64,000 nucleotides of DNA, taken from the NCBI RefSeq assembly GCF_900111745.1, contig NZ_FOIJ01000001.1, positions 1,054,001 to 1,118,000 of the forward strand, read 5' to 3'. Origin of the DNA: Stigmatella erecta. Its GTDB lineage: Bacteria; Myxococcota; Myxococcia; Myxococcales; Myxococcaceae. Under the pieces are notes generated by a model. That model was not told where the DNA came from and did not search any database. It saw only the letters and a program-made list of their open reading frames with translations. Both the position numbers and the translations under genes were made by a program. Of the stretch, positions 11,990-58,790 are shown one piece after another (position 1 is the first letter of the stretch; each line of letters starts with the position of its first letter).

Positions 11990-14701
11990 CTATCCTACCC
12001 GGGCCAGGGCCAGGCGGCCTTCCCAGCGTTCCTCCAGGGCCTTCACGAGCCCCTGGTGCTCGGGCGCCTGGAGGTGGGCGTCGCGTTCGAGAATCTTCCG
12101 GGCCTCGATCTGGGCCTGGGAGAGCAGGTCTCCATCGCGGACGAGGTTGGCCACGGCCAGCTCCGGCAGGCCGCTCTGGCGCGTGCCGAGAAACTCCCCG
12201 GGGCCGCGAATCTCCAGGTCCTTCTCGGCGATGACGAAGCCGTCGCTGCTGTGCTCCATCACGGAGAGGCGCTCGGTGGACTCCCAGGAGCGCGCGAGGC
12301 TGGCCACCAGGTAGCAGAAGCTGATGGCGGCGCCGCGTCCTACCCGGCCCCGGAGCTGGTGCAGCTGCGAGAGCCCGAAGCGCTCGGCGGCCTCGATGAC
12401 CATGACGGAGGCGTTGGGCACATCCACGCCCACTTCCACCACGGTGGTGCACACGAGGATGTGGATCTGCCGCTCGCGGAATGCCTCCATCACCGCGTCC
12501 TTCTCCTCGGGCTTCATCCGCCCGTGGAGCAGCCCCACGCGGGCGTGCGGAAACACCTGCTGGAGCTTCTCCGCGCCCTGCGTGGCGTCCTCCAGGTCGA
12601 GCTTCTCGGACTCCTCCACCAGCGGATAGACGATGTACGCCTGGTGCCCCTTGGCGATCTCCGCGCCCACGGCCTCGTACACGCGGGCGCGCTGCTGGGC
12701 GTTGAAGATGCGGGTGGACACGGGGGTGCGCCCCGGGGGCAGCTCGTCGATGATGGAGACGTCCAGGTCCCCATAGAGCGTCATCGCCAGGGTGCGGGGA
12801 ATGGGCGTGGCGGTCATCACCAGCACATCCGGCGTGGGGCCCTTGCTCATCAGCGTGTGGCGCTGGAGCACCCCGAAGCGGTGCTGCTCGTCGATGACGG
12901 CGAGCCCCAGCCGCTCGAAGGCCACCCCGCCCTGGATGAGGGCATGGGTGCCCACCGCGAGGTGAATCTCGCCCCGGGCCACGGCCTCGCGCACCTCGCG
13001 CTTGTGCTTCGCCGTCCCGGCGGCGCTGACCAGCCCCACGCGGAAGCCCAGCGGCTCCAGGAGCTTTCGGAAGCTGCGCTCGTGCTGCTCGGCGAGGATC
13101 TCCGTGGGGGCCATGACGGCCACCTGGTAGCCGTCCTGCAACGCAATCAGCGAGGCCACCACCGCCACGGCCGTCTTGCCCGAGCCGACATCTCCCTGGA
13201 CGAGCCGGTTCATGGGCTCGGCGCGGGCCATGTCCTCGGCCAGCTCGTCCACGACGCGCGACTGCGCGCCGGTGAGCTGAAAGGGCAACGCCCCCCGGGC
13301 CCGGCCCATCCGCTCCCCGGAGACGGTGAAGGCGATGCCCCGCTCCGTCTTCACGTTCTGGCGCTTGAGCCCCATGCCGAGCTGCAGGAAGAACAGCTCA
13401 TCGAAGGCGAGCCGCCGGTGCGCGGGGCTCAGGTGCGCATCCAGCGCCGCCAGGTCCGCGGTGTCCGGGGGAAAGTGGATGCTGCGCAGCGCCTCGGGCA
13501 GCGTCACCAGGCCGAGCCGCTTGCGCAGCGTCTCGGGCAGCGGCTCCTCGAGCTGCTGCGCGTAGTTCTCGCTCACCCGGGCGGCCACATCGCGGAAGGA
13601 GCGCTGATCGCCCCGCTCGAAGCCGGGGTAGATGGGGACGATGCGGTTGAAGTGGACCGAGGAGGACTCCAGATCCTCCGCGGGTTCGATCTCCGGGTGC
13701 GCCATCTCCCGGCCGGACATGGAGGCGCGGACTTCACCGGAGAGCACGAGCCGCTTGCCCACGGTGAAGCGGCCCTTGAGCCACGGCCCGGCGTGGAAGT
13801 ACGTGGCGGCGATGCTGCCCGACCGGTCGGCGACCACGGCCTTGAAGTAGCGCTTGCCGTTGCGGCCGGCCACGTAGTCCGCCGTCTTCACGACGCCCAC
13901 GGTGACGCCGCGCGCGCCCGGCTCCAGCTCGGCGATGGTCAGCAGCTTGCGCCGGTCCTCGTAGCAGCGCGGCAGCAGGAAGAGGATGTCGCCCATGCGC
14001 CGCAGCCCCTTCTTGTCGAGGGCATTCAGCAGGCGCGGACCGAGCCGCTTGCCCAGCGTCTTGAGCGGCGTGGACAGCGGCCCCGAGCGCGGCGCGATGG
14101 ACAGCAGCTTCGCCTCGGCGCGGGACTCCTCGGCCCCCGCGGCGCGCTTGCGCTTCTTGCCACCAGCGGCCTTCTTCGGAGCGGCGGCCTTCGGCTCCGC
14201 CGGGGGCGTCTTCGGCACGGCCGCGGCCGGAGGCTTCACCGCAACCGGAGGCTTCACCGCGGCCGGAGGCTTGGGCGCCGCGGGCTTCGAGGCGGACGGA
14301 AAGGCCAGCCGCCCGGAAGCGGGGCCCCCAGGAACCGGCTCCGCGGCCTTCCACGGGGGAACGCTCTCGCGCACGGGCTCGGCCCGAGCGGCCGGCAGGG
14401 GCTCCGGCGCCGGGGGCTCCTGTGCGGCCACGCGGGCCAGCTCGGGGGGAAGCTCCAGGCCACTGAGCTGGAGCGCGGACACGATGCGCCGCAGCGCGGC
14501 CTTGCGGCGCTCCACCAGCGGCGCATCCACGTGGGGCAGCGCGGCGCGCAGCACCGTCAGCGCCTGGGCATCCACCCCCGAGGCGCCCGCGAGGGCCCGC
14601 TCCAGCAGGCCGCGCAAATCCCTCACCGTGGACAGCTGGGCGAAGTCCCGCTGACAGGCGTACCGCAGAGGCCCTACGAGGCTGACGAGTGGATGGCTCA
14701 C
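11990..14701 (-). CDS. recG: ATP-dependent DNA helicase RecG with N-terminal extension
   Basis: About 903 residues, some 200 longer than E. coli RecG (693). It remodels stalled replication forks and branched DNA. The C-terminal 690 residues hold the family's OB/wedge domain and helicase motifs: VQGDVGSGKTAVA (Walker A), VIDEQHRFGV (DEQH box), VMTATPIPRTLAMTLYG and QLRGRVGRG. The extra N-terminal part contains an Ala/Pro/Lys-rich linker with an 18-nt tandem repeat (14226-14279). The GTG at 14701 was chosen because VSHPLVSLVGPLRYACQ begins a plausible helical region; an ATG at 14782 in the same frame is an alternative. It follows greA in the same direction. Confidence 0.93.
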   Translation of the reverse strand: MSHPLVSLVGPLRYACQRDFAQLSTVRDLRGLLERALAGASGVDAQALTVLRAALPHVDAPLVERRKAALRRIVSALQLSGLELPPELARVAAQEPPAPEPLPAARAEPVRESVPPWKAAEPVPGGPASGRLAFPSASKPAAPKPPAAVKPPVAVKPPAAAVPKTPPAEPKAAAPKKAAGGKKRKRAAGAEESRAEAKLLSIAPRSGPLSTPLKTLGKRLGPRLLNALDKKGLRRMGDILFLLPRCYEDRRKLLTIAELEPGARGVTVGVVKTADYVAGRNGKRYFKAVVADRSGSIAATYFHAGPWLKGRFTVGKRLVLSGEVRASMSGREMAHPEIEPAEDLESSSVHFNRIVPIYPGFERGDQRSFRDVAARVSENYAQQLEEPLPETLRKRLGLVTLPEALRSIHFPPDTADLAALDAHLSPAHRRLAFDELFFLQLGMGLKRQNVKTERGIAFTVSGERMGRARGALPFQLTGAQSRVVDELAEDMARAEPMNRLVQGDVGSGKTAVAVVASLIALQDGYQVAVMAPTEILAEQHERSFRKLLEPLGFRVGLVSAAGTAKHKREVREAVARGEIHLAVGTHALIQGGVAFERLGLAVIDEQHRFGVLQRHTLMSKGPTPDVLVMTATPIPRTLAMTLYGDLDVSIIDELPPGRTPVSTRIFNAQQRARVYEAVGAEIAKGHQAYIVYPLVEESEKLDLEDATQGAEKLQQVFPHARVGLLHGRMKPEEKDAVMEAFRERQIHILVCTTVVEVGVDVPNASVMVIEAAERFGLSQLHQLRGRVGRGAAISFCYLVASLARSWESTERLSVMEHSSDGFVIAEKDLEIRGPGEFLGTRQSGLPELAVANLVRDGDLLSQAQIEARKILERDAHLQAPEHQGLVKALEERWEGRLALARVG
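14226..14279. repeat. 18-nt tandem repeat in the recG linker
   Basis: Three copies of an 18-nt unit beginning (a/g)ccggaggcttcaccgc sit side by side inside recG, the third diverging in its last half. They encode repeated Lys-Pro-Pro-Ala-Val type residues of the low-complexity linker. The length may therefore vary between strains without breaking the frame. Confidence 0.7.
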
Positions 14702-14812
14702 GTGCGAATCCGAGCGCTCATCGTAAAGAGCGGGGATGACGTTCCGCACGGAATGGAGCGGGGGGAGCGGGCACGGGCCCACTCCCCCGGCCGCTGCTCC
14801 GGCGGCGGTGCG

Positions 14813-15322
14813 TCAGGGGGCCGGCGAGGCCTCGTCGTCCTGCGGATCCTCGAAGCGGATGTCCTGGATCTCGAACTCGCGCTCGCCCCCGGGGCTGCGC
14901 ACCAGGGCCACATCCCCCACGCGCTTGCCAATCAGCGCCCGGGCCACCGGCGAGGTGACGGCGAGCCAGCGCTTCTTGATGTCGGCCTCCAGCTCGCCCA
15001 CGATGCGGTAGGTCACCGTCTTGTCGGTGTCGGGATCCAGCAGCACCACGGTGGCGCCGAAGACGACCACGTCGCCCTTGAGCTTGCTGGTGTCGATGAC
15101 CTCGGCCCGGGCAATCCAGTCATTGAGGTCCAGGATGCGGCCCTCGATGTGGCCCTGCTTCTCCTTCGCGGCGTGGTACTCCGCGTTCTCGCGCAGGTCT
15201 CCATGGGCCCGGGCGACCTCGATCTCCCGAGAAATCTTCCCGCGCTCGACGGTCTGGAGCTGCTTGAGCTCCTCCTTGAGCTTCCGGAGACCGGAGGGGG
15301 TCATCGGGATGTTACCGCTCAT
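14813..15322 (-). CDS. greA: Transcription elongation factor GreA
   Basis: 169 residues. It binds RNA polymerase's secondary channel and stimulates cleavage of backtracked RNA. The N-terminal coiled coil (about residues 10-75) includes the tip motif GDLRENAEYHAA, with acidic residues D42 and E45 at the catalytic tip. The C-terminal FKBP-like domain runs from about residue 85 to 160 with SPVARALIGKRVGD. A strong ribosome binding site (CTGGAAGGAG) precedes the ATG. An intrinsic-terminator-like hairpin lies just upstream inside the leader, suggesting autoregulation by attenuation. recG follows on the same strand. Confidence 0.97.
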   Translation of the reverse strand: MSGNIPMTPSGLRKLKEELKQLQTVERGKISREIEVARAHGDLRENAEYHAAKEKQGHIEGRILDLNDWIARAEVIDTSKLKGDVVVFGATVVLLDPDTDKTVTYRIVGELEADIKKRWLAVTSPVARALIGKRVGDVALVRSPGGEREFEIQDIRFEDPQDDEASPAP

Positions 15323-15340
15323 CGAACCAGCTCCTTCCAG

Positions 15341-15379
15341 GGCAAAAAATAAAAAGGGCCGCCTGCCGGCACGCCCTTT
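15341..15379 (-). terminator. Intrinsic terminator inside the greA leader (possible attenuator)
   Basis: Reading the minus strand, a 7-bp stem AAAGGGC/GCCCTTT encloses a 13-nt loop that can form an inner 3-bp GCC/GGC stem. It is followed by a T-rich tract (TTATTTTTT). It ends about 19 nt before the greA start codon. There is no minus-strand gene between this hairpin and the gene ending at 16609, so it does not obviously end another transcript. Confidence 0.7.
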
Positions 15380-15419
15380 CCAGGGGCGGCCGGTGAGCGG
15401 CTACCGCAAAGCTGCCCCA

Positions 15420-15448
15420 AATGTAGGAGAGCTTTGACTATCGAGCAA
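15420..15448 (-). promoter_or_regulatory. Candidate greA promoter
   Basis: On the minus strand, TTGCTC and TACATT are separated by 17 nt, matching the -35 box at 3 of 6 and the -10 box at 4 of 6 positions. Transcription would start near 15413 and run through the terminator-like hairpin at 15341-15379 before greA. The match is only moderate. Confidence 0.35.
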
Positions 15449-15519
15449 ACGAAAGCAGCCGGCACGGCCCGATAAGCGTCTGGGTGTTCGGCGGCCAACC
15501 AACCCACTAGGCTGGGTGC

Positions 15520-16047
15520 ATGCTGCTGGTTCGCGAGGTCCGAGCCCTGGCGGGCAATCTCCAGAAAGAGGACTTCCTGCGGCAGGTGGGGCCCTTCGTG
15601 CTCGTGCGGCAGCCGCCGGATCCGGTGGTGGAGCGGCTGGCCTTGCGGCTCGGGGCCCACCGCACCCGGGTGGCGCGCTCGCAGGCCTCCGCCAAGATGC
15701 TCGTGGCGGAGCTGCTCCAGCACCTGGACGACCTGAGCGTGGCCACGCTGCCGCCCATCCGGGGCAGCGAGGAGCTGCAGATTGGCCGCCTGCCCGACAA
15801 TGATGTCGTCGTGGACGATCCGTCCGTCTCCAAGCGCCACGCGGTGCTGCGCTGGGACGCGCTGGCGCGCCGGTGCATGCTGACGGACCTGGGCTCACGC
15901 AACGGCACGTTGATCAACGCCGAGTACATCCGCGACGCCAACTCCCTGGTGAGTGACGGGGACATGCTGAGCTTCGGGGATGCGGAATTCTGTTTCCTGG
16001 AGACGCTCAGTCTCCTGTCGATGTTGCACACCGCGCACTACGCTTGA
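15520..16047 (+). CDS. FHA-domain protein (first of a tandem pair)
   Basis: 175 residues. The C-terminal 95 residues form an FHA phosphothreonine-binding domain with the key motifs IGRLPDNDVVV, SVSKRHAVL and LGSRNGTLIN. The Arg, Ser, His and Asn needed for ligand binding are all present. The N-terminal 80 residues (VREVRALAG..FLRQVGPFVLVRQPP) form a separate conserved segment shared with the next gene, of unknown function. No kinase or secretion domain is attached. It is likely a signalling adaptor in the Ser/Thr kinase networks typical of myxobacteria; the partner is unknown. It is followed after 12 nt by its paralogue. Confidence 0.88.
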   Translation: MLLVREVRALAGNLQKEDFLRQVGPFVLVRQPPDPVVERLALRLGAHRTRVARSQASAKMLVAELLQHLDDLSVATLPPIRGSEELQIGRLPDNDVVVDDPSVSKRHAVLRWDALARRCMLTDLGSRNGTLINAEYIRDANSLVSDGDMLSFGDAEFCFLETLSLLSMLHTAHYA

Positions 16048-58750: not shown

Positions 58751-58790
58751 GACGGGGCGCTGTTAGTTCAGCGCCCCGTCTTTCTTTTTT
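58751..58790 (+). terminator. Strong intrinsic terminator after the GH3 gene
   Basis: A 12-bp perfect GC-rich stem GACGGGGCGCTG/CAGCGCCCCGTC with a TTAGTT loop is followed by TTTCTTTTTT. It is the best rho-independent terminator in the window. Confidence 0.9.

Follow-up and report, generated by a model that had tools for sequence, protein, structure and literature searches.

A putative intrinsic terminator in the greA leader of Stigmatella erecta with a GraL-like layout

The window, a 64,000-nucleotide stretch of the Stigmatella erecta genome, carries greA on its minus strand (Table 1). The encoded protein was identified as a true GreA by its match to the NCBIfam equivalog NF001261 (221.8 bits; cut-off, 167). 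On the minus strand, a promoter, a hairpin, a U tract, a Shine-Dalgarno sequence, and greA follow one another in this order. The gene upstream of greA encodes an FHA-domain protein and is divergent, so the leader hairpin ends no upstream gene, as an earlier sequence-only reading of this DNA had stated.

Table 1. Positions of the features at the greA locus in the window
Feature	Position	Strand	Details and basis
greA, 169 aa	14813..15322	-	ATG at 15322; ORF; Pfam GreA_GreB_N and GreA_GreB
Shine-Dalgarno sequence of greA	15331..15338	-	GGAAGGAG; sequence; kept in 8/8 rows of alignment A2
U tract of leader terminator	15344..15355	-	TTTTTATTTTTT; sequence; only exact copy in the genome; top T-tract score in the window
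Leader terminator hairpin (predicted)	15358..15401	-	Folds; terminator score 43.4
Candidate competing hairpin	15397..15407	-	GCGG-TAG-CCGC; overlaps 5′ arm of the terminator; folds of growing transcripts
greA promoter (predicted)	15420..15448	-	-35 TTGCTC, 15448-15443; 17-nt spacer; -10 TACATT, 15425-15420; sequence
Divergent FHA-domain gene, upstream neighbor of greA	15520..16047	+	Pfam FHA, 63.4 bits

In its preferred fold (-32.0 kcal/mol), the leader hairpin has a bulged stem of 16 bp. The outer stem of 6 bp (GCCGCT/GGCGGC) is followed by a 2 × 2 internal loop, the middle stem of 5 bp (CCGGC/GCCGG) by a 1-nt 3′ bulge at 15371, and the upper stem of 5 bp (CGCCC/GGGCG) is capped by a 7-nt loop. 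Only CC separates the 3′ end of the hairpin (15358) from the start of the U tract (15355). The 7-bp stem proposed in the sequence-only reading, GGCCGCC (15391-15385) with GGCGGCC (15363-15357), is present in the sequence, but the preferred fold is the longer, bulged one; the gap between the U tract and the ATG, given there as 19 nt, is actually 21 nt. In the 9.2-Mb genome, the exact U tract occurs once, and sequences with at most one mismatch to it occur at four places, both strands included.

The leader was then evaluated with a d'Aubenton-Carafa-type score that combines the hairpin and the U tract. None of 3000 dinucleotide shuffles reached the score of the window leader, 43.4 (highest shuffle, 39.3); the positive control, E. 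coli GraL, obtained a lower value with the same scorer (35.1). Only four sites on both strands of the 64-kb window scored >10; the greA leader ranked second by score and had the strongest U tract. It was absent from the list of a simple terminator scan of the window because that scan excludes bulges and any loop larger than 8. The fold energy of the whole leader was unexceptional (z, -1.2 to -1.7), and the signal resides in the hairpin and the U tract, not in whole-leader fold energy. These results agree with the earlier proposal of a terminator in the minus-strand greA leader.

We surveyed the greA leaders of the order, for which greA was sought in 145 genomes and matched in 141, and all 141 leaders were scored. 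The score exceeded 0 in 54 leaders, compared with 120 of 2820 shuffles (4.3%), and exceeded 20 in 30 leaders, compared with 10 of 2820 shuffles. Among controls, the antisense strand of the leaders gave 0/141 and the upstream stretch from -400 to -270 gave 0/69. By family, scores >0 were obtained in 7/11 leaders of f2, 18/23 of f3, 0/1 of f4, 1/1 of f5, 0/3 of f6, 1/1 of f7, 5/5 of f8, and 2/2 of f9, which amounts to 34 of 47 leaders outside f1, the family of the window. Within f1, 20 of 94 leaders scored >0 and 74 did not; the positive ones belonged to the genera g1 (4/7), g19 (15/27), and g26 (1/7), and every other genus had none. Elsewhere in the phylum, the score was >0 in 5 of 37 leaders, one leader having masked bases, compared with 7 of 728 shuffles. 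Among 38 more distant or mixed loci, of which at least two duplicate members of the order, 14 scored >0 in 150-nt windows (raw count, without shuffles). A test of T content past the lowest-energy hairpin was rejected, being confounded by hairpins that extend beyond the U tract.

Comparison among related species, which the sequence-only reading had recommended, gave a divided picture: the hairpin is widely kept, but only some lineages retain the U tract and others have lost it. The U tract is identical in G036, G037, and G038 and lost in three of the seven species of the window's genus (G039, G040, and G041). None of 2 genomes of g5 and none of 16 genomes of g6 were above the threshold; in some g6 genomes, the start codon was set upstream of its proper place by a few codons, and the 130-nt window is shifted accordingly. 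At three g6 loci (L134, L133, and L135; genomes G021, G024, and G026), the hairpin is wholly missing and the Shine-Dalgarno sequence stands almost directly after the -10 box; these leaders are natural deletions of the element. A hairpin with a 3′ bulge of 1-2 nt located 4-7 bp below the loop was found in 46 of 61 f1 leaders, many of which are closely related and do not represent independent events, compared with 71 of 1830 shuffles. This count covered leaders of at least 40 nt from g1, g2, g3, g5, g6, g7, g8, and g19. The stem sequences of the bulged hairpins are quite different among g1, g5, g6, g7, and g19; in g2, g3, and g8, the bulge was found in 0/8 leaders, and among the terminator hairpins of other families, in only 7/34.

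A consensus promoter scan of the window returned nothing at its threshold for a greA promoter. The promoter that had been judged plausible upstream of the hairpin proved to be conserved in relatives, with TTGAC/TTTGC ... TACA(T/G)T at the same position in FHA-linked genera of the window's family. The transcription start is predicted at ~15413, ~92 nt from the ATG. Among the terminator-scoring leaders of the order, 45 of 54 had a promoter-like pair (at least 8 of 12 matches to the consensus) upstream of the hairpin, compared with 17 of 270 shuffles; the promoter scorer chose a wrong site in G000 and G037, where the -35 is weak, and the promoters there were read by eye. In terminator-scoring leaders, the -10 of the TTGAC-like pair usually ends 4-18 nt ahead of the hairpin, so that the hairpin would start a few to ~12 nt from the predicted transcription start. 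In f3 leaders, it starts 4-13 nt past the -10 box, with almost no RNA upstream. A hairpin near the predicted start leaves little room for a ligand-type antiterminator. Two further candidate elements were dropped: an inverted repeat spanning the -10 box (CAAAGCT-N16-AGCTTTG, 15436-15407, minus strand), which G038 lacks, and base pairing between the 5′ end of the leader and the Shine-Dalgarno region, in which the bases involved differ in G036 and G038.

An order-level RNA model (R1) was built from 32 leaders outside f1. Up to E 1, it gave no match at the leader of the window; of the 25 f1 loci searched alongside, only L115 produced a match, a weak one of 15.9 bits (E 0.059). The best genome matches of R1 were mostly its own building sequences and thus not independent, and a single order-wide RNA family was rejected on these grounds. 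In the R1 alignment (A1), four of the 11 pairs are invariant, and a control with columns slid by -1 was similar in covariation score (0.176 vs 0.165); since the outer stem is nearly invariant, the evidence from covariation is limited. Judged by position, the window's hairpin plausibly shares descent with those of other families, but homology lacks sequence support because the window leader is not matched by R1. Within f2, f3, and f8 (e.g., L187, L190, L194, and L208), the outer stem GCGGCC/GGCCGC is near-invariant, and the GreA proteins of these families are only ~55-65% identical to that of the window. The stem sequence there is conserved beyond what pairing requires.

We also classified the genes upstream of greA, using tblastn since naive ORF reading is useless in this GC-rich DNA. 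The leader element was present in 7/7 cases with a divergent ArgC gene, 20/85 with a divergent FHA gene, 20/33 with a co-directional CarB gene, and 7/16 with an unclassified gene. CarB is the upstream neighbor of greA in f3, f6, and f9 and in five f1 genomes. When the element was missing next to CarB, no more than 42 nt separated the CarB stop from the greA ATG in 10 of 13 cases (the exceptions being G045, G001, and G130), which leaves little space for a separate promoter and leader. At L184, L185, L195, L224 (f3g34), L216, and L218 (f6), greA has no leader terminator and begins 4-20 nt past the carB stop, as would be expected if the two genes were transcribed together. Across three neighbor types, two of them divergent, the terminator-like leader tracks greA rather than its neighbor.

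We next compared the leader with known greA leaders. Like E. coli GraL (RF01769), it has a predicted intrinsic terminator with a U tract between the promoter and the start of greA on the same strand, and in both, the hairpin lies <20 nt from the transcription start, which in the window is a predicted one. According to PMC6829880, 19 nt precede the terminator in E. coli, GraL ends about two thirds of the transcripts, and the ATG is at +150, compared with ~92 nt in the window. The same source reports that E. coli GreA reduces its own expression via GraL, that catalytically active GreA raises GraL termination, and that this autoregulation seems to require an unidentified factor. GreA dependence has been demonstrated for GraL only. 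The stem sequences also differ. The likeness to the E. coli leader noted in the sequence-only reading holds for the layout but does not extend to the RNA family: RF01769 matched E. coli with 127.5 bits, but was not among the matches to window positions 14700-15700 up to E 5 and did not match seven related loci up to E 1. With Rfam as a whole, nothing in window positions 14700-15700 or these seven loci exceeded a gathering score. In PMC2965389, leader terminators recur at greA and rnk in Proteobacteria, bacilli, and clostridia, and greA/rnk is the seventh most attenuated family. Since greA attenuators are already known elsewhere (PMC2965389; RF01769), the window's leader belongs to a known type. 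A search of the main text of PMC2965389 gave no mention of either Myxococcus or Deltaproteobacteria. A search of open-licence literature by title or abstract opening, in which greA also matched "great," found no paper on a myxobacterial greA leader, and for PMC2704228 and PMC11585934 the text matches to greA were to other words or none.

Several explanations may account for the hairpin. It could be a 5′ untranslated region structure serving mRNA stability or translation, with the U tract a lineage-specific addition and termination a minor matter. The bulged hairpin of f1, which extends to genera without a U tract such as g6 and g5, favors this explanation; against it, a unique 12-nt U tract directly past the stem is found here in a GC-rich genome, and most leaders outside f1 combine a terminator-scoring hairpin with a U tract, so that we consider it rather unlikely. 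An origin as a relic 3′ terminator, left behind by an upstream gene (carB, for example) that is no longer there, would fit the co-directional CarB genes of other families and of five f1 genomes, but it is highly improbable given the promoter-like sites between CarB and the hairpin, the short CarB-greA distance in most CarB-linked leaders lacking the element, and the presence of the element where the neighbor is a divergent ArgC or FHA gene.

A classical attenuator or riboswitch, in which mutually exclusive structures would respond to a ligand or an upstream ORF, seems barely credible. A 4-bp hairpin, GCGG-TAG-CCGC, does appear first in folds of the growing transcript and is a weak candidate antiterminator, since it overlaps the 5′ arm of the terminator, and antiterminators are reported in greA leaders of other phyla (PMC2965389). 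Those, however, are clear ones, whereas the hairpin in the window is 7.6 kcal/mol less stable than the terminator at full length; in addition, f3 leaders have almost no RNA ahead of the hairpin, and Rfam yielded no match above a gathering score at window positions 14700-15700 or in the seven related loci.

The greA leader of the window is probably an intrinsic terminator that would stop a share of transcripts 60-70 nt past the start. Partial termination in the leader is its most likely function, and the predicted features are best read as constitutive or polymerase-level attenuation resembling GraL. RNA polymerase would start near 15413, the nascent hairpin would fold from ~+13, and polymerase would either release in the U tract or read through into greA. 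Since the hairpin lies near the start and leaves little room for an antiterminator, control, if any, would most likely act on polymerase, through GreA, as proposed for GraL, or through other elongation factors; otherwise, the terminator would simply fix a low, constant expression of greA. That GreA regulates termination in this leader is a tentative proposal based on analogy with E. coli. The similar signals before greA in many related species suggest a way of limiting the amount of GreA. It is also conceivable, though quite improbable, that throughout the order the terminator stands almost at the start so that the elongation complex leaving the promoter senses the GreA level without ligand or antiterminator, with the 3′ bulge of the window's family as a recognition or pausing determinant. 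A leader that differs from GraL in sequence, shares its layout, and is kept through changes of neighbor offers a natural comparison to GraL, and lineages that have a U tract, such as Anaeromyxobacter, and those that lack one, such as Corallococcus, could be used to test whether control of greA dosage needs the terminator.

Elsewhere in the same genome, a leader terminator was looked for at three GreA-family paralogues and none was seen. GreB at L002 (G000:C9:310560-311012; NCBIfam PRK01885 equivalog, 211.7 bits) is without one. Apart from the greA leader, the window has a single strong terminator-like site, at 58751-58780 on the plus strand (score 47.1), where a perfect stem of 12 bp precedes TTTCTTTTTT.
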